Assembly: GCA_017471985.1 (NCBI GenBank)
Contig: JAFURE010000118.1
Location: 1-64,000 of the forward strand
Source of the DNA: Akkermansia sp.
GTDB taxonomy: Bacteria; Verrucomicrobiota; Verrucomicrobiia; Verrucomicrobiales; Akkermansiaceae
Direction: 5' to 3'
DNA length: 64,000 nt
Below are positions 3,582-20,849 of this stretch, piece after piece (within the stretch, counting starts at the first letter, position 1; each line of letters starts with the position of its first letter). The notes below the pieces were generated by a model. It was not told where the DNA came from, searched no databases, and saw nothing but the letters and a program-made list of their open reading frames with translations. The position numbers and the translations under genes were made by a program.

Positions 3582-4793
3582 TCAGTACCCCCTACGGAAA
3601 ACAGGTTGGCCCATATCAATGCTGCCATCGGCAGGCACGTTCTTCAAGTCAAACGGCACTCGCCAGCGGAATCTGCTGCCCTCGTTGGTCTGAATAAGGA
3701 CATCAAGAGCCATAGCACCACCCTCAGTGTTCTTTAGCTCAATGAGTTCAGCCAACGGGATGCTGACAGTTGCTACGGTTTTTCCGTCAGCTGTCTTGCT
3801 CATGCTGCAGGGGAACGGTACGGCATCGTAATCGCGGTTGACTTCAAAGGGCGGGTCCTGAATATAGGCGTTCACATTCACCACTTCAGGAGTGGTGCGG
3901 AGGTAGAGCTCGAGGGTGTCGCCCACACGCTTGAAGCTCGCAGTTTCTACTGTCGGAGCTTCTACTTGCGTGTAGAACTTTGTCGTTGTACCTTTCGAAA
4001 CAAAAAGCTCGGAGTGAGCCAGAATACGGCAGCTGGCCAATGTGAGGTAGGTGGGCCTGAAGCCAAAGGTGTAATTACCGGCGCCCATGAGTGCAGTGCC
4101 GTGAGCCTTGTTGTCACTGGCTGTGCCGAGGTTATGGGGCAGGTTCAGGCCGTGCCCCAGTTCGTGCGCAAAACCACCGTACCATTTGGTCAGCAGGCGC
4201 CCTTCTTTGGTGGGCTGTCCGATGTGCTTAATGTCGAAATGAGCATAGTCCAGAGCAAAGCAGTTCGTGCCGAGTCCATAGAACGGCACTCCACCGGGGT
4301 TAAGGTCGTTATACTCTTCATCATAATGCGTAGGCATAATAACAAAGGTATGCTGGCTGGTGCGGCGTCCGGGTACAGCATCGAGGTAAGCATTGACCTC
4401 TTCCAGGCAGGGATTGTGACCGGTTCCATAAGAATACTCGGTGTGGGGCTTTTTGCCGCGAACCAGGTGAATCTGCACCTCACCGTTATCTTTCATAGAA
4501 AGCCCGAATGAGTGAGCTCCCTGACCATTGCGAACCATTTCCTTACCGTAGTACTGCTGCAGGTAAATCAGCAATTCGCTGATACGGCGCTCGTAGTCAG
4601 CTATCGGTTCTCGGTCATTACCAACGAAGTATATCACGTTGAGCTGATTTTCACTGGGTATCAGCTCAATGCTGTCTGCCAGCAACTCCTTGGCTCGGGG
4701 TTGAAAATGCTCGGGTACAGCACCCATAGCGGCCACGCTCAGCCCAAGGGCACACATCATTACAGTAATGGCTTTCATGCGCATACGCCGCAT
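3582..4793 (-). CDS. ogpA: Secreted O-glycopeptidase, OgpA (OpeRATOR)-like metalloprotease
   Basis: A zinc protease predicted to cut mucin-type glycoproteins N-terminal to O-glycosylated Ser/Thr. It has an N-terminal signal peptide (basic start, then a hydrophobic stretch to about residue 24) and the metzincin zinc site HELGHGLNLPH at residues 210-220, with ALMGAGNYTFG as the Met-turn. Long stretches match my memory of A. muciniphila OgpA (Amuc_1119), such as GGVPFYGxGxNCFALDY, FDIKHxGQ and LLTKWYGG, all in the same order and spacing. At 403 aa it is close to OgpA in length. ATGs at 4793, 4784 and 4778 are in frame; I keep the longest because it gives the best basic n-region. It lies 25 bases after the regulator gene and four before the kinase. 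Confidence 0.9.
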   Translation of the reverse strand: MRRMRMKAITVMMCALGLSVAAMGAVPEHFQPRAKELLADSIELIPSENQLNVIYFVGNDREPIADYERRISELLIYLQQYYGKEMVRNGQGAHSFGLSMKDNGEVQIHLVRGKKPHTEYSYGTGHNPCLEEVNAYLDAVPGRRTSQHTFVIMPTHYDEEYNDLNPGGVPFYGLGTNCFALDYAHFDIKHIGQPTKEGRLLTKWYGGFAHELGHGLNLPHNLGTASDNKAHGTALMGAGNYTFGFRPTYLTLASCRILAHSELFVSKGTTTKFYTQVEAPTVETASFKRVGDTLELYLRTTPEVVNVNAYIQDPPFEVNRDYDAVPFPCSMSKTADGKTVATVSIPLAELIELKNTEGGAMALDVLIQTNEGSRFRWRVPFDLKNVPADGSIDMGQPVFRRGY

Positions 4794-4818
4794 ATTCTGC
4801 CATCAATGTATGATTTTG

Positions 4819-5712
4819 TCAAGTAAATGTGTTACCTGGTCGGGATGCGTAGAGGATTACCAACTCTTTGATTTCACTCTCCCTGATTCTGTTAAAACGG
4901 AGTTCCGGCAGCACTCCTCGCAGCTTGGTGGAGGCGTTGTAGCGTATACGCTCAGCCAGTCGCGAGCTCATGGGGGGCACGTACAGTTCGATACGATGAG
5001 GGGCTAGGGTGCAGGTGATAACTTGTAACAAGCGTGCGGTCATTTCCTCTACCATGACTCGGTCACTGTAATCAAGCGTAATCCAATCTGCCGGCATGGT
5101 CAGAAAGTGCAGGGGTCCGGTTTCATAGACTGCGCCGCCTCGAACAATTGCACAAGATGGATTATCTCCCGGTTGTAAACAGAGAACCACGGTACCATCA
5201 GTTGCTCCCTGTGCTAAAATCGTCGCTGTACCCGGCATGTTGACGGGGCATTTGTATCGGGATTGCAAGTGCGACACCATGCCCTCCGGTATGATGTCGG
5301 CCGGAAATATCAGTGTGATGCTGCGCAAACGATGATTGCGCAGTGTTTCTGACAATATGCCATCAAGGCTCTCTTTTTCCAGATACGCAAATTGAGCTGT
5401 AGCGAATCGACGTTCACGACCATGCAAATCGAGAATATTTACCCGACAGTTCAACAGTGTGCCTTGTCTGTGGCATTCAATCAATGCGTGACGCGCATAA
5501 TTAACGTTGTACCTATACAACATGACCGGGCGACCGCCGCCGGAAGGCACCTCTTCTGCAGCTCTCAACTCTCCATTTTGACACAGATAATCAACGGCTT
5601 TGCAGACAGACACCAGACTAAGGCCCGTCGCCTGTGCCAATTGAGGCCGTGTGGCTTCTCCTCGTTCATGCATTGCCAGTAAAACAGCCTGCTGTGCTCC
5701 TGTTAAGCTCAT
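4819..5712 (-). CDS. ROK-type transcriptional regulator with degenerate kinase domain
   Basis: A 297-aa regulator. An N-terminal winged helix-turn-helix (residues 1-65: LTGAQQAVLLAMHERGEAT... RPQLAQATGLSLVSVCKAVDYL) with a GGGRP wing turn is the hallmark of NagC/XylR-type ROK regulators. The remainder resembles a ROK domain that has lost the phosphate loop and the NDAN motif, so catalysis is unlikely. The start is the ATG at 5712, since residues upstream of it do not fit the family. It is first in the operon with ogpA and the kinase. The promoter just upstream overlaps a perfect palindrome, suggesting autoregulation in response to a sugar. Confidence 0.83.
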   Translation of the reverse strand: MSLTGAQQAVLLAMHERGEATRPQLAQATGLSLVSVCKAVDYLCQNGELRAAEEVPSGGGRPVMLYRYNVNYARHALIECHRQGTLLNCRVNILDLHGRERRFATAQFAYLEKESLDGILSETLRNHRLRSITLIFPADIIPEGMVSHLQSRYKCPVNMPGTATILAQGATDGTVVLCLQPGDNPSCAIVRGGAVYETGPLHFLTMPADWITLDYSDRVMVEEMTARLLQVITCTLAPHRIELYVPPMSSRLAERIRYNASTKLRGVLPELRFNRIRESEIKELVILYASRPGNTFT

Positions 5713-9215: not shown

Positions 9216-9244
9216 TTGCCTTGCTGAGATGAAACAGCTAGAAT
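9216..9244 (+). promoter_or_regulatory. Promoter of the C39-like peptidase gene (leaderless)
   Basis: TTGCCT (9216-9221), 17-bp spacer, TAGAAT (9239-9244). Only seven bases separate the -10 box from the ATG at 9252, so the transcript probably starts at or next to the start codon. This favours 9252 over the in-frame ATG at 9243, which overlaps the -10 box. Confidence 0.65.
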
Positions 9245-9251
9245 GTGCCGT

Positions 9252-10511
9252 ATGAAGCGCATTCTGTTAACTACGCTTTTTTGTGGATTGCTCGCTCCTG
9301 CTTTCGCAGGGGATATTGCCGACATTGTCAAGAGCGGTGAAATCTGGCAGAAGAACCGCCTGCAACTTTCTGCCGGCGCACTCAACGGAGTGCGATATGC
9401 CCCGGTGGATGCCGACACCATACGAGTGCCGCGTAATGGCGGTATTCAGCTGGCTGAGCTCGATTTCGGTGAGACTGTCATTAGTTGGCAGCCGAATAAA
9501 GGCACCACTCAGAGCGTGGTTATCATGGTGTACAATAAGGGGGATGATTCCTCGATTGACCGTGAGAGCTATATGGAAACGCTCCAGCAGACTATCGCTA
9601 CTCTCAATGAGCTGATGCAGACTAAGGGGAGGTCCCGCAAAGCTTCCAAAAAAGATACCGGTGTATCACTACAATCCTGGGTCTGGGAAAGCGAGGGGAC
9701 ATACGTGCGTCTTGATGCCTCCTACACCGGCCGCAAAAAAGATTTTTCCCCGGAGTTCATTCGCCTGAAAATGGGGCCGGATAAGGATTCTGTTGTCGGT
9801 GGCGGTGCCGATGATACAGCGAAGCGCAATGACCTGAAAGCTAACGTGCAGCGTGATGAAGAGAGCGGGGATGTCTGGATTTCCATTCCGATGGTTGACC
9901 AGGGACAGAAAGGTTACTGCGTACCGGCTACTGTAGCCCGGGTATTTGCCTACTATGGCATGGATGGAGTCGACCAGCATGCATTGGCTCAGCTCTGTGA
10001 CAGTTCGGGAGATGACGGCACCTCATACGCGGCCATGCAGGAAGCGCTGGAATCCATAAGCCGTAAGTTCCATATCCGCATGCAGATGTTGGACGGCAAG
10101 GACATACGTTCGACTTACATGGAGTATATAGCCGATTATAACAAAGCCGCCAAAAAGCTCAAAAAACAGCAGGCCACGCCCATGGATTGGATTGAGGTTT
10201 GCAGAGACAGGCAGGTGCTACTGGCAGCTCGAGGTAATAAGAAGTACGTCAAAAAATGGTTCTCGGCCATCAAAAAGAGTCTGGATGTCGGCGTACCGAT
10301 ACTGTGGAGTGTGGAGCTGGGAATTTTCCCCGAAGCCGGCATTCCGCAGGCCGGAGGTGGTCACATGCGATTGATTGTCGGCTACAATGAGGAGGACGGC
10401 ACGATTTACTACAGCGACTCCTGGGGAGCAGGGCATGAGAAAAAGGCCATGAAGATGAATCAGGCCGCGGCGATAACCCGATATCGCTACATCCTGCGCC
10501 CCTCTCGTTAA
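9252..10511 (+). CDS. Secreted C39-like cysteine peptidase
   Basis: A 419-aa exported protein: signal peptide MKRILLTTLFCGLLAPAFA, a 170-residue region of unknown fold, then a papain-like C39-type domain. The domain shows an oxyanion Gln and nucleophile Cys in DQGQKGYCVPATV (Cys about residue 223), the His in GGGHMRLIVGY, and an Asp in YSDSWG. C39 peptidases usually process leader peptides and are fused to ABC exporters; here there is no transporter and no peptide substrate gene nearby. It may act on an envelope or external protein. The neighbouring gene is convergent, two bases away. Confidence 0.75.
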   Translation: MKRILLTTLFCGLLAPAFAGDIADIVKSGEIWQKNRLQLSAGALNGVRYAPVDADTIRVPRNGGIQLAELDFGETVISWQPNKGTTQSVVIMVYNKGDDSSIDRESYMETLQQTIATLNELMQTKGRSRKASKKDTGVSLQSWVWESEGTYVRLDASYTGRKKDFSPEFIRLKMGPDKDSVVGGGADDTAKRNDLKANVQRDEESGDVWISIPMVDQGQKGYCVPATVARVFAYYGMDGVDQHALAQLCDSSGDDGTSYAAMQEALESISRKFHIRMQMLDGKDIRSTYMEYIADYNKAAKKLKKQQATPMDWIEVCRDRQVLLAARGNKKYVKKWFSAIKKSLDVGVPILWSVELGIFPEAGIPQAGGGHMRLIVGYNEEDGTIYYSDSWGAGHEKKAMKMNQAAAITRYRYILRPSR

Positions 10512-10513
10512 GT

Positions 10514-11224
10514 TCAGTGGTGCTTACAATGATGGTCCCGTCCCTCATGTGAATGGCTCTTGTGTTTGTGCCTGCAATTTCGGTGGTATGATCCCTCGAG
10601 CTGCTCACGTTGGCGGATTTCTTCTTCCAGTCTGTTCTCGGCTTCCAAATCGCGTTCAGGAGTAGTGGCAATCTCGTAGGGTTCCTTGTACTCCGGCGGT
10701 TCGGTGGGATTCGGCTGCAGTGCAATGGAACGACTGCTGCTCACTTTCATGAGCACATGCCATGCAGCAGCCTGCGTGGGTGAAAGACACAGGCGAGCTC
10801 CCTCGGCATAGCCCTGCGAGCTGAGCATGTTTTGAGAAACGACATCAGTGTATAGCACCTGAGCCAGACAACGCCCCTTGGCGTCCAGCAGTTCCAGCCG
10901 AGTGTTCACTCCACTGTAAGGATAGAGAGAGGGTGCTTGCTTAACGGCACTCATGTCGGCAATGAGACGGCGCAGTTGATTGATGTCGTAGTCAGAAAGC
11001 GTAAGTCGCTGCGGCTTGATGGGTCCCTGAGGCCCATGAATAACGTACAGACGCATGCTATGGCAGACCTTTGCGGCCTGTTGCAGGCGTGCAAGCTGCT
11101 TTTTGCCGGTATTGAGGTTTGCCTGTTGCTCACGAGGACTTTCGTACACAACGGGCCCGAGATACCAGGCCGCGGCGGGCAGGGGACTGAGCAGCAGCGC
11201 GAGGATGGTAATCAGCGTTCTCAT
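10514..11224 (-). CDS. Secreted protein with histidine-rich tail, CHSMR family
   Basis: I do not recognise this 236-aa protein. It has a signal peptide (MRTLITILALLLSPLPAAA), then a domain with KVCHSMRLYVI also found in the upstream gene product, and a charged helical stretch (EAENRLEEEIRQREQLEG). Residues 217-236 are rich in His, Lys and Cys, which could bind metal. Its start codon overlaps the stop of the upstream gene by four bases (ATGA), so the two are translated together. Both may be domestic members of one exported family. Confidence 0.7.
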   Translation of the reverse strand: MRTLITILALLLSPLPAAAWYLGPVVYESPREQQANLNTGKKQLARLQQAAKVCHSMRLYVIHGPQGPIKPQRLTLSDYDINQLRRLIADMSAVKQAPSLYPYSGVNTRLELLDAKGRCLAQVLYTDVVSQNMLSSQGYAEGARLCLSPTQAAAWHVLMKVSSSRSIALQPNPTEPPEYKEPYEIATTPERDLEAENRLEEEIRQREQLEGSYHRNCRHKHKSHSHEGRDHHCKHH

Positions 11225-11649
11225 TGTCCGGGGATGTACATAGTTGCACGCCTGTTATAGCGACCGTCAGGCAGCTCGCTTTCCTTCACCACCCAATCCA
11301 ACGGCATCGTGTAGTAGACTTCGCCCTGCTCATTCAGCATTTGAAGGTAGAACATGGAGCGGGGAAGCTTCATCTTGCTCCCTTTCTGCTTCAGAGGTTT
11401 AAGAGATGAAATAATATGTCGCCAATGGTTCTGCTCTTCAGCAGTTAGCTCCATATAGCTTGTGCGGCCTTCATCCTTACCTCGTACTACGCGCTCGTAT
11501 ATTCGCATAGAGTGGCACTCGGGCAATGCTTTTTGCAGCGTTGCAACACGGCGGGTGTTCTGTTCATAAAAATCCCCCTCTGTTGGGGCGGCAGCCTGAA
11601 CCAATGGGGTACAGAAAAGCAGAGGTATAATAAAATCAACGGAGTTCAT
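11221..11649 (-). CDS. Small secreted protein, CHSMR family
   Basis: A 142-aa protein with a signal peptide (hydrophobic MNSVDFIIPLLFCTPLVQA) and a mature part that shares its layout with the next gene: a helix, PECHSMRIYERVV, then a segment with WRHIISSLKPLK that matches RRLIADMSAVK there, and a strand-rich end. It lacks the histidine-rich tail of its partner. No known domain is recognised. It lies just downstream of the RND pump terminator. Confidence 0.68.
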   Translation of the reverse strand: MNSVDFIIPLLFCTPLVQAAAPTEGDFYEQNTRRVATLQKALPECHSMRIYERVVRGKDEGRTSYMELTAEEQNHWRHIISSLKPLKQKGSKMKLPRSMFYLQMLNEQGEVYYTMPLDWVVKESELPDGRYNRRATMYIPGQ

Positions 11650-11718: not shown

Positions 11719-14700
11719 TCAACCCTTCTTCTTATCCACCCCGATGGTACGCGCTGTCCAGTCGCGCATGCGGGCGAAGATGGAGTAGAGACCGGGTACC
11801 ATAAAGATACCGAAGGCAGTTGCCAGCACCATACCGCAGAAGGTTGTGATACCGATTTCCTGACGGCTGGCTGCACCGGAACCGGTCGCTATCACCATGG
11901 GGAATACACCAAAGATGAAGGAAATGGCAGTCATGAGCACAGCTCGGAAGCGGATGCTTGCACCATTCAGCGCAGCTACCTGAACGGGGTTGCCGGCTGC
12001 ATGGTCTTCCTTACTGAACTCCACCATCAGAATGGCGTTCTTAGCAGCAAGACCGATGAGCATCAGTATACCCAGCTGTACGTAAATCGACATGGACAAG
12101 CCGAAGAGCTGAGCACCCATAAGGGCACCCAGTGTTGCCACGCTGACAGAAAACATGACCGGCACGGGTGTGGTCCAGCTTTCATACTGAGCCACGAGGA
12201 AGAGGTAGGCAAAGAGCATGGCCAGACCGATAAGGATGCCGATTTTGCCGGTATTCTGACGCTCCTGATAGGAAAGGTCTTTCCATTCCACAGCCCACTG
12301 GCGGTCGAGCCCCTTAGCGCGCTCCTCCTTGTTAATCTGAGCGATTGTGTCCTCGATAAGCTTCATGACCTGACCGGAACCGACACCGGCCTGGGGCATA
12401 ACCGTTACGTCAGCACTCATGTACTGGTTAAAGCGACCATAGTTGGAGGGGCCGAGTCTGTAAGAGAGGGTGCACACTGCCGAGAGCGGCACCATGGCGC
12501 CCTTCTCATTGCGCACCATCTGGTTGAGGATATCATCTGCCGTGCGGCGATCCTTCACATCACCCTGAATCTTCACCTTGAAGTTGAAGCCGTTCAGCGT
12601 GAAGTCATTGACGTAGGACGATGCCATCACACTCTGCAGGGTCGTGAAGATGCTCTTTACATCAACATTCAGCGCCTGAGCTTTTTCTCGGTTGATTTCC
12701 AGTCGAATCTGGGGAGTTTCGGCGTTGAACTCAGAGCGCACCATCATGATGAGCTCCGGGTGAGCCTGCAGACGCTTGCGAATTTCTTTCACCATGTCAC
12801 CGAGGTCATTCGGTGTGGCGCTACCACGGCCTTCCAGTACCATGGAAACGCCGCCGTACAGGCCGAGGCCCTGAATGGCGGGCGGAGTTGTGGCCATGAT
12901 GGAAGCCTCGGGGATATCCTTACAGGCCTCACTGATTTTCTTTGCCATGGCGGTGGCGTGCAGATCAGGAGTTGTACGCTCGGACCAGGGCTTGAGCATG
13001 ATGATAACCATACCGTTACCCTCACCGGAACCCGATGCGAAGCTGAAACCACTGGTGGATGTCACCATGTCGATACCCTCGAGCCTGGAAATGCGCTCTT
13101 CAATCTGACGCATAACCTTATCGGTACGCTGCTTAGCGGTAGCAGAACCCTCGAGGTTCACGATACAGAAGATTGCGCCCTTATCCTCAGTGGGAATGAA
13201 GGAGCTGTTGAGCATTTCCGGGGCGATGAGGCTCAGGAAGTCGTACTGGCTCTCACTGGCAGATTTACCCTTGGCCATCATCATGGCGGCGCCGGGCTGA
13301 GGAGCAGGGCGCCAGATATTGTTCCACCAGGCCGGAGCGCCGGCGTAGAAGGCGTAGTTCAGGTACAGGACAGCAGCGAGCGTCAGGACAGTCAGCCAGG
13401 CATTGCGCACCAGAATACCGGCACCCCACAGATAGAAGGAGCGGCACTTTTCCAGACACCAGTTGAAAGGACGGAATACCCAGTAGGAGAACTTGGTTTG
13501 CTTGACATTGGCCGGGCGCAGAATAAGAGCACAGAGTGCAGGGGAGAGTGTGAGTGCATTGAAGGTTGAGATACACAGAGCCACGCACATGGTGACAGAG
13601 AACTGCGTGTAAATCACACCCACCATACCACCATAGAAAGCAATGGGAACATATACGGCAAGCGTTACCAGCGTGGTTGCAATAATAGCTCCGGTAATCT
13701 GCTGCATGCTCTTGATTGTGGCCTCTTTCGGGGAAAGTTTTTCCTCCTGAATCAGGCGCATGACGTTTTCCACAACCACGATAGCATCGTCCACCAGTGA
13801 ACCAATCACCAGAATAAGGCCGAACATGGTCAGCACGTTAATGGAGTAGCCCAGCACGTACATGAAGGCAAAGGCGCCCAGCAGCGACACAGGAATGGCC
13901 AGAGCCGGTATAAGTGTAGCACGCCAGTCCTGCAGGAAAATGAATGTCACAAGAACAACAAGGAAAAGAGCCAGCACCAACGTGATACCGATTTCTTCCA
14001 TCGTGGCGGAAATAGCCTGAGTAGGATCGTAACCCATGGTCCAGGTGACACCATCCGGAAGCATGGGCTCAATCTCTTTCATCTTGGCCTTCAGAGCCTC
14101 CACTGTAGCGAGGGCATTTGCATCGTTATTACGCTGTACCATCATACCCACGGCATTCTTGCCATTCAGGCGGCTGTAGCCGGAGTTGTTCTCTGCGCCC
14201 AGCTCAATGGTAGCAATGTCCTTCAGCTTCGTGACGTGACCGGCTTCACCTCGTTTGACGACTATATTGCCGAACTCCTCAACTGTCTTGAGTCGGCCGG
14301 AGGCAGTCACCTTATACGTAGCATAAGCTCCTTCGTCCTGCGAACCCACGGAACCGGCAGCGGCCTGAATATTCTGCCCGGCAATGGCATTGCGAACATC
14401 CGCCGGCGTGATATTAAGGGCGTTCATACGCGTGGTATTCATCCACACACGCATGGAGTAGTTGCGGCTGTGCATGATATCAGCTACCGATACGCCATCA
14501 ACCTGCGTGAGCGGGTCTTTCACATTCATGCGCAGCCAGTTGGTAAGCTCGAGAATATCCATCTTATTCTCGTCGCACATGAAGCTCAGGAAACAAAGCA
14601 TGTCGCTGGAGCGCTTACGCACGCTGTAGCCCATCTGTTTGATTTCCTCAGGCAGCTTACTCTCCACCTGCTTAATGGCATTGGAGACGTTCACCATAGC

Positions 14701-15009
14701 CATGTCATCATTGGTACCGGTCTCGAATATCAACGTGAGGGAATAGGAGCCGTCATTGGTACAGGATGAGTAGAAGTACAGCAGGTCATCCATACCAATC
14801 AGGTTTTCTTCTACAGGGGCAGCAACTACCTGAGCCAGTTCTTCAGCACTGGCACCGGCGTAGGTCATACGAACCGAAATGGTGGGCGGGGATACCTCGG
14901 GGTATTCCGACACAGGCATTTTGGTCAGGCAAAGGAAGCCCGCCAACATCATCACGATTGAGACAACGAAGGCGAACTTGGGACGGTGAATGAAGAATTG
15001 TGAAAACAT
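11719..15009 (-). CDS. RND efflux pump, inner-membrane transporter (HAE-1/AcrB type)
   Basis: A 1096-aa proton-driven exporter of the AcrB group. It begins with FFIHRPKFAFVVSIVMMLAG (TM1) and has the porter domain repeat and the TM4 pair in GSLVDDAIVVVENVM (the two Asp of the proton relay). TM10 has AAKNAILMVEF, with the matching Lys. Twelve transmembrane segments are expected. Between TM7 and the second porter half there is an insert of about 50 residues containing Trp- and Pro-rich sequence and GAAMMMAKGKSAS, which is not in typical AcrB proteins. The adaptor gene ends 17 bases upstream, but no TolC-like gene is near. Substrates cannot be predicted. Confidence 0.95.
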   Translation of the reverse strand: MFSQFFIHRPKFAFVVSIVMMLAGFLCLTKMPVSEYPEVSPPTISVRMTYAGASAEELAQVVAAPVEENLIGMDDLLYFYSSCTNDGSYSLTLIFETGTNDDMAMVNVSNAIKQVESKLPEEIKQMGYSVRKRSSDMLCFLSFMCDENKMDILELTNWLRMNVKDPLTQVDGVSVADIMHSRNYSMRVWMNTTRMNALNITPADVRNAIAGQNIQAAAGSVGSQDEGAYATYKVTASGRLKTVEEFGNIVVKRGEAGHVTKLKDIATIELGAENNSGYSRLNGKNAVGMMVQRNNDANALATVEALKAKMKEIEPMLPDGVTWTMGYDPTQAISATMEEIGITLVLALFLVVLVTFIFLQDWRATLIPALAIPVSLLGAFAFMYVLGYSINVLTMFGLILVIGSLVDDAIVVVENVMRLIQEEKLSPKEATIKSMQQITGAIIATTLVTLAVYVPIAFYGGMVGVIYTQFSVTMCVALCISTFNALTLSPALCALILRPANVKQTKFSYWVFRPFNWCLEKCRSFYLWGAGILVRNAWLTVLTLAAVLYLNYAFYAGAPAWWNNIWRPAPQPGAAMMMAKGKSASESQYDFLSLIAPEMLNSSFIPTEDKGAIFCIVNLEGSATAKQRTDKVMRQIEERISRLEGIDMVTSTSGFSFASGSGEGNGMVIIMLKPWSERTTPDLHATAMAKKISEACKDIPEASIMATTPPAIQGLGLYGGVSMVLEGRGSATPNDLGDMVKEIRKRLQAHPELIMMVRSEFNAETPQIRLEINREKAQALNVDVKSIFTTLQSVMASSYVNDFTLNGFNFKVKIQGDVKDRRTADDILNQMVRNEKGAMVPLSAVCTLSYRLGPSNYGRFNQYMSADVTVMPQAGVGSGQVMKLIEDTIAQINKEERAKGLDRQWAVEWKDLSYQERQNTGKIGILIGLAMLFAYLFLVAQYESWTTPVPVMFSVSVATLGALMGAQLFGLSMSIYVQLGILMLIGLAAKNAILMVEFSKEDHAAGNPVQVAALNGASIRFRAVLMTAISFIFGVFPMVIATGSGAASRQEIGITTFCGMVLATAFGIFMVPGLYSIFARMRDWTARTIGVDKKKG

Positions 15010-15026: not shown

Positions 15027-17204
15027 TTACTTGGTTTCTTCCTCGGTGGTGGATTCTGCAGAGTCAGGCTCAGGGGCCGGGGTTACAGGTGTACCATCTT
15101 CGATTTCAGCCAGCGGCGAGGTGATGCAACGGTCACCCTCGCGAAGGCCGGCGAAGATGGGGGTAAGGCCGTTTTCATCCGGCGACCCGGTCAGAACCCT
15201 GACCTGTACAGCTCGGTTATGGCGCATGGCGTAAACGTAATGTCCGCTCGTGTCGGTCAGGATAGCACGGGAGTCAACAGCCGGAACTTTACGGTCAGTC
15301 TTGCGCGTCACGCGAATGGTAACCACGCCACCGGGGCGCAACTCGCCATCCTCATTCTTGAACACGGCCCAGAAGTTCTGAGTGTCCGTGGCCGGTTGAA
15401 TGACGTTGTCGCTGAAGTAGACGCTGCCTTTTTCGTGGTACACATTACCATTGGCCGTCACGAGGGTGACTTCCGTGTTGTCCTTCAGTCGGTCATCTGT
15501 ACCGTAATTGGACAGGATTGCGTTCTCGCTGAGGGAGAAACGCACATAGATTGGGCTGACCTGCACCAGAGTAGCCAGCGGTGATTTGAGGTCGGAGATA
15601 TAAGTACCCTCAGAGTGAGTCACACGACCGATTCGGCCGGTAATGGGAGCCCTCATCGTGCAGCGGGAAAGGTCGTCTTCTGCCACAACAAGAGCCGCCT
15701 GTGCTTTCTTTCGCTGAGCAACCAATTCATCGAGAGTGGCCTTGGCGCTCTCCATATCATCCTTACTCGTGGCATTTGTCTGCGAGAGGGCAACCTGACG
15801 TTCATACTTACGCGTGGCATCCTTAATTTTGACGTCAAGCTGAGCGACTGCCGCACGGCGGGCATCTACCACCGCCTGATAGCGTGTGGGGTCAATCTTG
15901 AACAGCTCAATGCCCTTATGCACTAAGTCACCCTCGGTAAATCGAGGCTCTGCCAGCACGCCCTGAACGAGCGGGCGCAGCTGCACCTTGTTGATGGCCT
16001 CCAGACGAGCACCCTGACATACCAGCACTGTCTTATCCTGAGCCATAACCACGGGAGTGGTAACAACCTCGGTGGGTTTCGCTTCATTCACTACGTTACC
16101 GCTGGAATCGAGCTGATTATCAGATTGTGCCAGAACGGGAATCACCGTATCACCCACGCGGATTTTGTGTGCGCCGTCTGTAATGATGGTCTGACCTTCT
16201 GTGAGCCCACTGTAAACAGATTGCAAACGCCCCTGAATGGAACCCACATACACATCCTGTCGGGAAACAACGTTGTCATCGCTCACAACATACACGTATG
16301 CGCCATCACCATCGTAATGGACGGCAGTGAGGGGAACCATACAAACCTGCTGCGTATCGGTTAACGAGATATGCATGGCGCCGATACCCATCGGGGTAAG
16401 CATGTTATCCTTATTGGAAAACTCTGCCCAAAGGGTGTAAGTATCTGTTCCGGATGTGAGAAGATTGTCGACAATAGACACCTTGCCGGCATGTTCATAA
16501 CGGCGACCGTTGGCCGTAGTCAGGCGCACATCGGCAACGTGGCCGATTTCTTTGGGGCCGCGGAAAATGCCGTTTACATCGGATTGGCTGAGAGGGAAAC
16601 GTACATAAATGGGGTCCATCTGCTTGATGGTGGCCAGAGTTTCGCCACGAGTAATATAGTTTCCCTCAGAGAATTCCACGCGCCCGATTCTGCCGGTAAT
16701 TTCGGCTCGAATGGTGCAGTCTTCCAAATCTTTTCTGGCTTTTACAAGGTCAGCCTGAGCACCGGCCAGACTTGCCTTGAGTTCCTCCAATCGGGCAAGG
16801 GCACTTTCTGTCGTTTCAACTGATGTTGCCTGAGCCTCCGCCAGTCGGGCGAGTCGTTTGTAGCTCTTCTCTGCGTAAACGATGCGCGCCTGAATTTCTT
16901 CTACGACAGCCTCTGCCTGCTGAACTGCAGCCTGATAGCGAATAGGAGAAATCTCAAACAAAACATCACCGGCCTTAACGATTGAACCTTCGCGGAACTT
17001 CGGTTCGCGCAGAAAGCCCTCCACCGCAGATTTAACGGCTACCGAGCGAATGGCTTCCACGTGACCTATACTTTTGCGGGTAATCCTATCTTTGCCAAAC
17101 GTAACTTTTTCTACCTGAACATGTTCCATGCCACCCGGACGCTGTGCTACAGCAGTCCCCGCAATCAGTGGCAACAGGGCGAGTGAGAAAAGAGACAGTC
17201 TCAT
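15027..17204 (-). CDS. Tandemly fused RND adaptor (two AcrA-like units in one chain)
   Basis: A 725-aa periplasmic adaptor with one N-terminal signal peptide (MRLSLFSLALLPLIAGTAVA). It holds two complete membrane-fusion-protein units, about residues 25-370 and 385-700. Each has a lipoyl half-motif (EPKFREGSIVKAGDVLFEISPIRY; EPRFTEGDLVHKGIELFKIDPTRY), a coiled coil, the second half-motif (RAEITGRIGRVEFSEGNYI; RAPITGRIGRVTHSEGTYI) and a beta barrel. Normal adaptors are 350-420 aa. There is no lipobox. A promoter with its -10 box seven bases before 17204 supports this ATG over ATG 17213 or TTG 17222. It is cotranscribed with the pump. Confidence 0.92.
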   Translation of the reverse strand: MRLSLFSLALLPLIAGTAVAQRPGGMEHVQVEKVTFGKDRITRKSIGHVEAIRSVAVKSAVEGFLREPKFREGSIVKAGDVLFEISPIRYQAAVQQAEAVVEEIQARIVYAEKSYKRLARLAEAQATSVETTESALARLEELKASLAGAQADLVKARKDLEDCTIRAEITGRIGRVEFSEGNYITRGETLATIKQMDPIYVRFPLSQSDVNGIFRGPKEIGHVADVRLTTANGRRYEHAGKVSIVDNLLTSGTDTYTLWAEFSNKDNMLTPMGIGAMHISLTDTQQVCMVPLTAVHYDGDGAYVYVVSDDNVVSRQDVYVGSIQGRLQSVYSGLTEGQTIITDGAHKIRVGDTVIPVLAQSDNQLDSSGNVVNEAKPTEVVTTPVVMAQDKTVLVCQGARLEAINKVQLRPLVQGVLAEPRFTEGDLVHKGIELFKIDPTRYQAVVDARRAAVAQLDVKIKDATRKYERQVALSQTNATSKDDMESAKATLDELVAQRKKAQAALVVAEDDLSRCTMRAPITGRIGRVTHSEGTYISDLKSPLATLVQVSPIYVRFSLSENAILSNYGTDDRLKDNTEVTLVTANGNVYHEKGSVYFSDNVIQPATDTQNFWAVFKNEDGELRPGGVVTIRVTRKTDRKVPAVDSRAILTDTSGHYVYAMRHNRAVQVRVLTGSPDENGLTPIFAGLREGDRCITSPLAEIEDGTPVTPAPEPDSAESTTEEETK

Positions 17205-17211
17205 GCCGAGC

Positions 17212-17240
17212 ATTCTACTCAAGAGCGTGCCCTAAATCAA
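17212..17240 (-). promoter_or_regulatory. Promoter of the RND adaptor-pump operon (leaderless)
   Basis: On the minus strand TTGATT (17235-17240), 17-bp spacer, TAGAAT (17212-17217), then seven bases to the ATG at 17204. The alternative ATG at 17213 lies inside the -10 box, so it cannot be used on this transcript. Confidence 0.65.
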
Positions 17241-17282: not shown

Positions 17283-20200
17283 TTAACCGCCCCGGCAAAT
17301 AGAGCGCAGGCGCGCAGCAGCAACCAGAATCGGGCAGATTCCCATGATGAGAAGGTAGACTGCGTTTCTCCAGATTGTAGAAACGGAGCCCTCATCAGTC
17401 TCCTGATCAATCTGACTGAAAGCTCTGGCTTGTCGAGGGGCAAGGAAGAAGCCGCGGTGTTCATTTTTACGGCCGTCCTTACGCGCTGTTTTAACTCCTT
17501 CACGAACGACATTAAGCTTACGGTTGGAAAAGAAGAACTCCACCGGCTGGTCTGTCTCGTACTCCTGTCGCTCTTCGAGCTGTGTGGTAAGGCGCTCGAG
17601 ATATTCTTCATCCTGACTGAGAGCAGCTTTTCTCACCCAGCGAAGTATGTCCTTGGCCTCGGAGGCATCTCTGGCCGAGGAATTGAGCAGTAGGGCAGCG
17701 CGTTGAATAAAACGCAGCTCGTCAAGGTTACCATGCTCTTTCAGGTATTCTCGCTGATTGTTGACGCGCCCGCTTTCAACCTCCCACAAATTGCTGTCAG
17801 TCTGCGTGACAAACATCATTTCAAAGGCGTAGCGCAGAGGACAAAAATCGGCAATCAAAGGAACGGGTTTTGAGGAAATATTGTGAGTGTGCTCATCCTG
17901 ATAAGCAACACGATGTCGAAGATTGGAAAGTCGCAGATCAACGGAGGCAGGAAGGAAAGTAGGGATATCCGGACAAAACTCATTCATCTCCTCAAACCGT
18001 ACGAGTGCTCCGGCCAACAGAATCTGCGGAACCAGCAGAAGCGGCACGATGTTGAGAGCCGTTCGTTCTGAACGAACCAGGGCCGACACCATCAACGACA
18101 GGGCGATACCAACAAAAGCAGTAAGCGTCATGACCCCCATGTGTTGCCAGAACATCAGTTCTATACCAAGTATGGCATTGCCGACCAAAAGGTAAAGGGC
18201 GCATTGCAAAGAGGCTATTCCCGTGAGCACAAGAATCTTTGCCAGCAGGTACCCGGGAATGAAAAGTTTGTAGTTACTCTCTCGGCGTATGAGAGGACGG
18301 TCGCGTATAATCTCGCATGCGGAATCCGTCAAGCCGAAGAACATTGCCAATACCAACGATAAAAACAGATATTCGTTGATATGCAGAGATTTGTAAAAGG
18401 TATACGTATCCTCGCCTGTCGCACGTAAAGTCCCGGCAATGAGCAGCGCTAACACCGGCCCCTCAAGCAGCAAGGCGTATAGTCCCGTTCGACTGCGAAC
18501 TCTGCTCAGGAAGGTGCGATTCATCCACAACATGAACAGGCGCCAATGTTCCAGCAGACTGCGCCTGGGAAGGGGCGGGACCGTCTTAACTGCCGTTTCG
18601 CCCACCTCTGTGCTTTCAACCGCTTTGCGTCGGTAACTGTAGTTCTCGAAACGCTCCTGCCACATGGCCGGACTGGGCTTCTGAATAAATCCAAGTCGCG
18701 TGTAGGGAGCTTCCAGCACCTCAAACACATAATCCGCACCGCCGGCAGCAACCGCTTCGCGGGAAACATGCAGCCCCATTTCCTGAGCAGACTTGCGGAA
18801 ATAATTAACCATTTCGGATGGCGAGCCCCAGAATGCCATCTGGCCGTTGGCGTTGAGAACCATCACTTTTTTGAAACGATTGAGAATGACTTGCGCAGGG
18901 CGATGTAAGGTGCAAAGCAGTATGCGAGATGTCGACATGCTCTCCAATGTTTCAATTACACGCTCGGCGTCACCGGATGACAGACCGCTGATGGGCTCAT
19001 CTATCAGGAACACCTCGGCCGTGCCGGTCAGGTCAAGCCCCAGATTCAGACGCGTGCGCTCACCGTCGGATAACATACGAGCCCCGGCTCTGCCGACATT
19101 TCGATTGGCCAGAGCACCGAGCCCAACGTAGTTGAGGATGGATAAAACCCGCCGCTTACGGTCAGCTTCGTTCAGTCGGGGCCGACGGGCGATAGAAGCA
19201 TGATAGACATGCTCACCTACCGTCATCGACTCATCCAGGATATCCTCCCTGGGAATATATGCGATATGACGCCGCAGATTGGTAGCGTGCGGAGTCATGC
19301 GCTCATTGTTGTAATGAATAGAACCTATCGATGGCTGAAGGTGCCCGGCCAGCATGGCCAGTAAGGTGCTTTTACCGGAACCGCTGGGGCCAAGGATGCA
19401 AGCCATTTCACCACGTTTCAGGGTAAAGTCAATATTATCGACGACACGCCCGGCTCTCACAAAATCACGAGAAAGCCCCTGAACTCTCAACGAATCAATC
19501 AGAGAAGATTCCTCATCGAGCACGCCGGCTGAAAATCGGCAACGCAGGGATTGAATAAGGCTCAAGCCGATGAGGTCGCCATCGCGCAATTGGGTATCTC
19601 CCTTAACGATCGTACCATTGACAGTAAGATTTGCGCCACCCTCAATCACTCGCAGAGTGCCGGTACTGTCCGTACGAGAATAGCTAACTTCGAAAACAAC
19701 AGCACCGGCAAGTCCCGGAGTCAGCATAAGAGCCGTTGTGCTATTGATGTAGGGTAGATTGGTAACCAGAAGTTTTCGGGAATCCGGAGCCAATTGATAA
19801 CTACGCCCCGGAGCCTCAATGTTGTGAAGCTCGGCAAATCTGTAAGGACCGAGCCCTTTGAGCGTAAAAGGTGTGTAGTACGTCGTACGCACGACATCAC
19901 CGGGAGCAAGCTCGGCGCCATCCAGTCTGAGCTGGGCCTCTCTACTGAGCACTTCAATTTCCACCTGTAGGCTGAAACTCACTCGTGCAAGCGGATTTCG
20001 GGGGCGTTGTCGGGTAATACAGACTTCTCCATTCTCGCTATACAGGTAACTGGCGTAGCTTACGCCGCTGTATCTGTTCTGAATAAGAGCGCGGATTGTG
20101 CTGTATCCCAGCGACCATTCGGTGAGTTCAATTGTCTGTCCCGGCGACAGAATTTGCATATCCCCCCGGTGCAATATGCGGCCCGATATAACAAACGGTT

Positions 20201-20849
20201 TGCTGGAATCATTGATTATAAGCAGAACATGAACACAATGCAGCGCCCGAAAACTGATTTCTCCCTCATCTCGCGACAGCGTGACCATATTCTCGCCTTT
20301 CCGGTGAGAAAAACAAAGGCTCTGAATGGGCGCGGGAGCATCCATCCCCGGCGTATGAAGGAGCTCCTCAAGTACTGCCGATGTTCCCGGAAGGTTAAGC
20401 CCATTAGTCACACGTTCAAACAAGGTCGGATTGGTAAGATCGCCACCGACACGATGAAGCATGGTAAAAATTTCGAGAGCCAAGGCCATGCGCTCCTCTT
20501 CCGTACGCGGAGCTGCTGCTATTCTCAGCATGTCGTCGAGAGGATAGCGGGCAATGTAGGCGGACTGAAAGCGCTCGGCCAACCAGCTGTGCTCCACATT
20601 CGGGAAATCGTAGCGAAGCATATCCATGGTAGTGTCCATGTCCTCAATCCCAATACCATCCACTCGAACCATAATGGATGCAAAAAGGTCAACGACCACA
20701 CCTGCATGGCTGCGCCGGGATTCATCTCGTGCTGCCAGTCGACGAGGAGCACGAGATAAAAACTCAGCAAAAAAACGACGCAATGCCAACATTTGACGTC
20801 GGCATGCCAGTATCAATTTGAGACCGTTCTTTTTTAATCGATTTATCAT
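17283..20849 (-). CDS. ABCG-type transporter with N-terminal TerB and FHA-like domains
   Basis: A 1188-aa half transporter. Residues about 48-165 resemble TerB (an acidic helical domain). Residues about 190-440 look like two or three beta-sandwich modules with FHA-style turns (LTVNGTIVKGDTQLRDGDLIGL), though canonical phosphopeptide residues are not clear. The ABC domain has Walker A GPSGSGKST (487-495), the signature LSDGERTRLNLGLDL, Walker B VFLIDEP and switch His in LCTLHRP. An ABC-2 membrane domain (about 800-1010) and a last helix near 1165 follow. The layout recalls mycobacterial Rv1747 (FHA-FHA-ABC-TM), with TerB added. Its start overlaps the upstream stop by four bases (ATGA). Cargo is unknown. 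Confidence 0.83.
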   Translation of the reverse strand: MINRLKKNGLKLILACRRQMLALRRFFAEFLSRAPRRLAARDESRRSHAGVVVDLFASIMVRVDGIGIEDMDTTMDMLRYDFPNVEHSWLAERFQSAYIARYPLDDMLRIAAAPRTEEERMALALEIFTMLHRVGGDLTNPTLFERVTNGLNLPGTSAVLEELLHTPGMDAPAPIQSLCFSHRKGENMVTLSRDEGEISFRALHCVHVLLIINDSSKPFVISGRILHRGDMQILSPGQTIELTEWSLGYSTIRALIQNRYSGVSYASYLYSENGEVCITRQRPRNPLARVSFSLQVEIEVLSREAQLRLDGAELAPGDVVRTTYYTPFTLKGLGPYRFAELHNIEAPGRSYQLAPDSRKLLVTNLPYINSTTALMLTPGLAGAVVFEVSYSRTDSTGTLRVIEGGANLTVNGTIVKGDTQLRDGDLIGLSLIQSLRCRFSAGVLDEESSLIDSLRVQGLSRDFVRAGRVVDNIDFTLKRGEMACILGPSGSGKSTLLAMLAGHLQPSIGSIHYNNERMTPHATNLRRHIAYIPREDILDESMTVGEHVYHASIARRPRLNEADRKRRVLSILNYVGLGALANRNVGRAGARMLSDGERTRLNLGLDLTGTAEVFLIDEPISGLSSGDAERVIETLESMSTSRILLCTLHRPAQVILNRFKKVMVLNANGQMAFWGSPSEMVNYFRKSAQEMGLHVSREAVAAGGADYVFEVLEAPYTRLGFIQKPSPAMWQERFENYSYRRKAVESTEVGETAVKTVPPLPRRSLLEHWRLFMLWMNRTFLSRVRSRTGLYALLLEGPVLALLIAGTLRATGEDTYTFYKSLHINEYLFLSLVLAMFFGLTDSACEIIRDRPLIRRESNYKLFIPGYLLAKILVLTGIASLQCALYLLVGNAILGIELMFWQHMGVMTLTAFVGIALSLMVSALVRSERTALNIVPLLLVPQILLAGALVRFEEMNEFCPDIPTFLPASVDLRLSNLRHRVAYQDEHTHNISSKPVPLIADFCPLRYAFEMMFVTQTDSNLWEVESGRVNNQREYLKEHGNLDELRFIQRAALLLNSSARDASEAKDILRWVRKAALSQDEEYLERLTTQLEERQEYETDQPVEFFFSNRKLNVVREGVKTARKDGRKNEHRGFFLAPRQARAFSQIDQETDEGSVSTIWRNAVYLLIMGICPILVAAARLRSICRGG

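Follow-up and report, generated by a model that had tools for sequence, protein, structure and literature searches.

The doubled adaptor gene and its product

The adaptor gene described here lies on the minus strand of the window, the whole 64,000-nucleotide stretch of Akkermansia sp. DNA that was analysed. The gene at positions 15027–17204 (stop codon included) encodes a doubled RND periplasmic adaptor of 725 residues, counted from the ATG start; an alternative TTG start at 17222 would give a protein of 731 residues. The NCBIfam profile TIGR01730 (RND_mfp) has two matches within the single adaptor frame, with a whole-protein E value of 1e-130 and a score of 435 bits against a curated cut-off of 94.9, and the Pfam family HlyD_D23 also matches two stretches in the same frame. 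When the protein is cut in two, the N and C halves align with each other at 39% identity over 311 residues (E = 6e-65).

The chain starts with a signal peptide covering approximately residues 1–22 (17139–17204; MRLSLFSLALLPLIAGTAVAQR), which is of the SPase I type with no lipobox cysteine and falls in a stretch of low pLDDT (residues 1–24). No signal peptide is seen in the sequence before the C half. The N-terminal adaptor unit comprises residues 27–358 (16131–17126) and the C-terminal unit residues 378–709 (15078–16073), as delimited by an AlphaFold2 model, by alignment with AcrA and by the position of the RLS motif in 18 orthologs. The model, built from these 18 orthologs, has a mean pLDDT of 85.4 and a pTM of 0.70. 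Each half folds into a membrane-proximal domain, a β-barrel, a lipoyl domain and a hairpin of about 75 residues, the hairpins being residues 88–163 in the N unit (modelled with high confidence) and 440–515 in the C unit. The best matches of the model in the PDB, as found by Foldseek, are AcrA, TMexC1 and MexA, each of which spans one half. The linker between the units (residues 359–377; 16074–16130), delimited by its low pLDDT (below 50 at residues 360–374), its length and its conservation, joins the two membrane-proximal domains and is disordered in the model at about residues 360–377. Its sequence is poorly conserved across orthologs, while its length is nearly constant, with 30–35 residues between V357 and D390.

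The initial annotation had proposed a single polypeptide with one signal peptide and two complete AcrA-like units, each with its own lipoyl, coiled-coil and barrel parts. The two profile matches in one frame, the lone signal peptide and the full set of domains modelled in each half bear this out. Both the barrel and the membrane-proximal domain are present in the modelled C half, which rules out an incomplete second copy.

The permease partner and neighbouring genes

The cognate RND permease (1096 residues; 11719–15009) is encoded on the same strand after the adaptor gene, at a distance of 17 bp, and is recognised by ACR_tran (E = 2.5e-287), RND_permease_1 and TIGR00915. Comparison of permeases shows an insert of about 50 residues between TM7 and the SSFIPTEDKG motif (residues ~541–591; approximately 13235–13388, minus strand), which by topology would lie at the periplasmic membrane surface. 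An insert of about 25–50 residues after TM7, often rich in Ala, Gly and Pro and variable in length, is found in all 52 permeases that adjoin a fused adaptor and in none of the five that adjoin a single one. Since each of the two features goes back to one clade, this association counts as a single event rather than as 52. In some relatives, open frames of 2049–2069 residues were considered as adaptor–permease fusions and rejected, as the adaptor ORF stops before the permease start.

No outer-membrane channel gene is present in the adaptor operon; genes for such channels lie on other contigs of the genome, and a channel encoded elsewhere thus probably serves the pump. Directly upstream of the adaptor gene, at 17283–20849 on the minus strand, is the gene for an ABC transporter of 1188 residues, whose long N-terminal region precedes an ABC ATPase and an ABC-2 membrane domain; this gene order is kept in the related locus L052, not in L050 or L051. 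Downstream of the permease, two small secreted proteins with no Pfam match are encoded at 10514–11649 (minus strand); in L052 the permease gene is likewise followed by one for a comparable small secreted protein (MKKLIIILSW...). A C39-like peptidase domain (PF13529, E = 7.7e-11) is present in the secreted protein encoded at 9243–10511.

Occurrence and conservation of the doubled gene

The same doubled gene, in one frame and 53–77% identical to that of the window, is present in about 31 of 36 genomes of the same genus. A separate scan of species genomes found full-length orthologs, matching nearly all of the query, in 56 Akkermansia assemblies, at 53–85% identity and from many hosts and studies; the closest relatives of the window sequence are assemblies from sheep and buffalo gut. 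Most of the pairs tested show purifying selection on each half: dN/dS is 0.03–0.065 in both halves in four of the five pairs with measurable dS, the outlier being the pair L034/L035, with values of 0.34–0.38 in both halves.

That the doubled frame might be a sequencing or assembly error joining two genes was raised in the initial annotation, together with a search for the same fusion in related genomes. Most of the genomes are metagenome assemblies, in which such a join could arise; nevertheless, the recurrence of one open frame in 56 independent assemblies at 53–85% identity, with purifying selection acting on both halves, makes an artefact vanishingly improbable.

In one genome, G030 (L051:6211–8373), the doubled adaptor is interrupted by an in-frame TAG codon near the start of its second half, while the remaining frame is well conserved; this represents either a sequencing error or a recent loss.

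Origin of the doubling

Five of the 36 same-genus genomes have a single adaptor of about 370–405 residues before the same permease. The genomes with an ordinary single adaptor at this pump belong to the Akkermansia muciniphila group and to two deeper lineages, and one of the single-adaptor Akkermansia genomes is a closed contig. In a sample of 289 Verrucomicrobiota genomes, in which three candidates were scored per genome, the doubled form was found in Akkermansia alone (8 of the 22 Akkermansia listed, the window included), with single adaptors elsewhere. Other doubled RND adaptors in Verrucomicrobiota were recognised neither among the matches listed nor among the three candidates per genome of this sample. 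Candidate doubled adaptors on plasmids were discarded, as the best matches there are single adaptors, both halves of the query landing on the same 1 kb. Elsewhere in the phylum, RND adaptors at G149:C8:28133–29131 and G069:C92:14240–15220 lie in open frames of 1149 and 806 residues, with one listed TIGR01730 match each; these are possible further adaptor fusions.

In the phylogenetic tree, the N halves and the C halves each form a monophyletic group, and the two groups are sisters (support 100/94), with the single-adaptor Akkermansia diverging successively below them. The sister relationship is retained in a tree of the near set, from which long branches were left out (98/94.6). On the near set, AU tests reject an origin from outside for the C half (p 0.025) and for the N half (p 0.014), while on the wide tree, which includes distant long-branch rows, the tests are borderline (p 0.0485 and 0.069). 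The stem branch of the C half is longer than that of the N half (1.16 vs 0.62).

The sister position of the two halves, together with the single adaptor of the muciniphila group and the two deeper lineages, points to one in-frame tandem duplication of a single adaptor gene within Akkermansia, which would be the simplest history and is well supported. The alternative, that two different pre-existing adaptor genes in the manner of TriA and TriB were fused, could draw on the mere 39% identity of the halves and on the wide-tree AU test, which falls short of excluding an origin of the C half from elsewhere (p 0.069). It is nonetheless very unlikely, given that the halves are sisters at 98–100% bootstrap, that the alternatives are rejected in the near tree and that the single-adaptor relatives carry only one adaptor at this pump. 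A fusion of two unrelated adaptors is likewise disfavoured by the trees.

Divergence of the two halves

The TolC-binding motif at the hairpin tip of adaptors is RxxxLxxxxxxS (PMC3391258). Both halves of the doubled chain have this RLS triad at the tip of the hairpin (R117, L121 and S128 in the N unit; R469, L473 and S480 in the C unit), where it aligns with R128, L132 and S139 of AcrA and shows no variation in either half across all 18 orthologs.

Elsewhere the halves have diverged unequally. At 11 sites, a residue that is fixed in both the single adaptors and the N halves has been lost from the C halves, while none shows the reverse pattern at this threshold. The membrane-proximal domain holds six of these sites, where about two would be expected (p ~0.01, with the shared ancestry of the 18 orthologs uncorrected). 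The lost sites include the equivalents of AcrA G363 and K366, which are G344 and K347 in the N unit and P697 and E700 in the C unit; this anchor is absent from the C unit in 18 of 18 orthologs. In AcrA, G363 is an ultra-conserved residue of box 9, and its mutation is equivalent to loss of the adaptor (PMC6975555). Conversely, three fixed positions are ancestral in the C unit and changed in the N unit (E560/Q207, L564/N211 and T629/A276, C unit given first). All three are in the barrel region, and the last aligns with AcrA R294 in box 5. We read these differences as a reciprocal specialisation, in which the N unit would keep the membrane-proximal anchor and alter its barrel residues and the C unit would do the reverse; the diverged residues may be expected to affect binding to the permease. 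The fused pair of non-equivalent halves envisaged in the initial annotation is in this respect well supported, the two halves having specialised differently in sequence.

The direction of these losses has also to be weighed against the longer stem branch of the C unit, which makes losses there likelier in general. Taken with the missing G363/K366 anchor in all 18 orthologs and the six ancestral membrane-proximal residues that are gone, that longer branch could indicate that the N unit alone is a true adaptor, and that the C unit, no longer anchored on the permease, serves as a spacer in the ring or as a regulatory module. We regard this as improbable, however, as the C unit retains the RLS tip and all of its domains, keeps the ancestral barrel residues that are altered in the N unit, and is under comparable purifying selection.

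A second doubled adaptor in the genus

The same genome encodes a second doubled adaptor of about 990 residues (G000 contig C99; L036:4841–7813), with two TIGR01730 units and placed before another RND permease. It differs in carrying a lipoprotein-type signal; both of its membrane-proximal regions contain insertions, and a series of short helices lies towards the C terminus (approximately residues 811–925). Three or more units were considered for this protein, but the HMM gives two. Its model is poor (pLDDT 57). The post-TM7 insert is absent from its permease. In L036, the adaptor is preceded by two small genes (3634–4823) that match neither NCBIfam nor Pfam, and the same order is seen in L044 and L046. 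This larger adaptor occurs in most of the fused-clade genomes, and the A. muciniphila group has a single form of it or none. Since it falls in a different paralog lineage of the tree from the 725-residue adaptor, at least two separate doublings seem to have taken place in this genus.

Proposed architecture of the pump

RND pumps contain six adaptors arranged as three pairs, and in most pumps these are identical chains. In the proposed model, a tripartite RND efflux pump uses the doubled chain as its periplasmic adaptor, which is made as a covalent dimer. The second copy, with no signal peptide of its own, is tethered by the short flexible linker between the membrane-proximal domains. Six adaptor units, contributed by three chains, would then ring the trimeric permease, as in the usual 3:6:3 pump, and at each permease protomer the N unit would take one of the two non-equivalent positions and the C unit the other. 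Both hairpins may dock tip-to-tip on a TolC-type channel through the RLS motifs present in each. The fusion would keep the two units paired 1:1 and in a set order, with the linker of near-constant length holding the pair. This three-chain hexamer is the most likely architecture; its stoichiometry, the positions of the units and the efflux activity of the doubled adaptor are what we infer from the features above. Taken together, a covalent-dimer adaptor of a tripartite pump, arising by tandem duplication, assembling as a three-chain ring and having specialised halves, is in our view the probable reading of the locus.

It is also conceivable, though rather less probable, that the two units of one chain bridge neighbouring pairs and so staple the ring together, in which case the identity of the unit at each site may differ. 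The N- and C-terminal ends of an adaptor both sit in the membrane-proximal domain, so the linker, which is disordered and nearly fixed in length, could reach either neighbour. Either arrangement still amounts to three chains and six units, as in the proposed hexamer.

A more far-reaching version of the covalent-dimer model can be offered tentatively. Here, covalent doubling would have fixed the two non-equivalent positions, and the halves and the permease insert would have co-evolved, with each half dedicated to one site. The chain would then be a genetically encoded PAP1/PAP2 pair, in a genus where doubling took place at least twice. On balance we do not favour this version in full.

Where all six chains are identical, as in most pumps, it is difficult to test what each position contributes on its own. 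How the adaptor ring assigns roles to its positions was still described as unclear in a 2026 review (PMC13328181). In the doubled adaptor the two units are tied together and have diverged, so that each position could be altered separately within one gene. The doubled adaptor of many gut Akkermansia species may thus offer a natural way to study unequal connector pairs in pumps, and the reciprocal loss of known permease-contact residues yields specific, testable predictions.

Comparison with known systems

By profile, fold and RLS motif, each half is a full member of the AcrA/MexA/MexC-type adaptors (TIGR01730), and an RND permease adjoins the gene as expected for these. The Akkermansia chain differs from them in having two units behind one signal peptide, no lipid anchor and diverged permease contacts. 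A closer parallel is the TriABC pump of Pseudomonas aeruginosa, in which two non-identical adaptors, TriA and TriB, serve one RND pump; these are 36% identical, compared with 39% for the halves described here. TriA and TriB are, however, separate genes in nature, whereas the Akkermansia halves form one natural frame that appears to derive from duplication. A single chain bearing both adaptor names, TriA and TriB, is found in PDB entry 6vej, and this linkage was reportedly engineered (by Fabre et al., in 2021).

Published reviews (PMC4446572, PMC4338810) cite DSY0927 of Desulfitobacterium hafniense, a fused dimeric adaptor that occurs naturally, works with an ABC transporter and has no coiled coil in its N half. 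It resembles the Akkermansia protein in that both join two adaptors in one chain without engineering, but it comes from a Gram-positive organism, has an ABC-type partner and joins two different adaptor types, while the partner in Akkermansia is the adjoining downstream RND permease. The N half in Akkermansia also has a hairpin (residues 88–163), modelled at high confidence. An ABC gene does lie upstream of the doubled adaptor, but the single-adaptor relatives keep the RND permease alone beside the adaptor. Engineered tandem AcrA–AcrA fusions work as a functional unit, according to a review citing Xu et al. 2011; these too are covalent dimers, but artificial and built from identical units.

In the literature searched, which takes in few subscription journals, no RND (AcrA-type) adaptor was found to be described that is naturally doubled and has both hairpins complete. 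The suggestion in the initial annotation that this fusion is not a described form is thus partly right: with DSY0927, the AcrA–AcrA fusions and 6vej, covalently doubled adaptors had already been described as an idea, while for a naturally occurring double of the RND type, complete in both hairpins, no earlier example was found in the papers searched.
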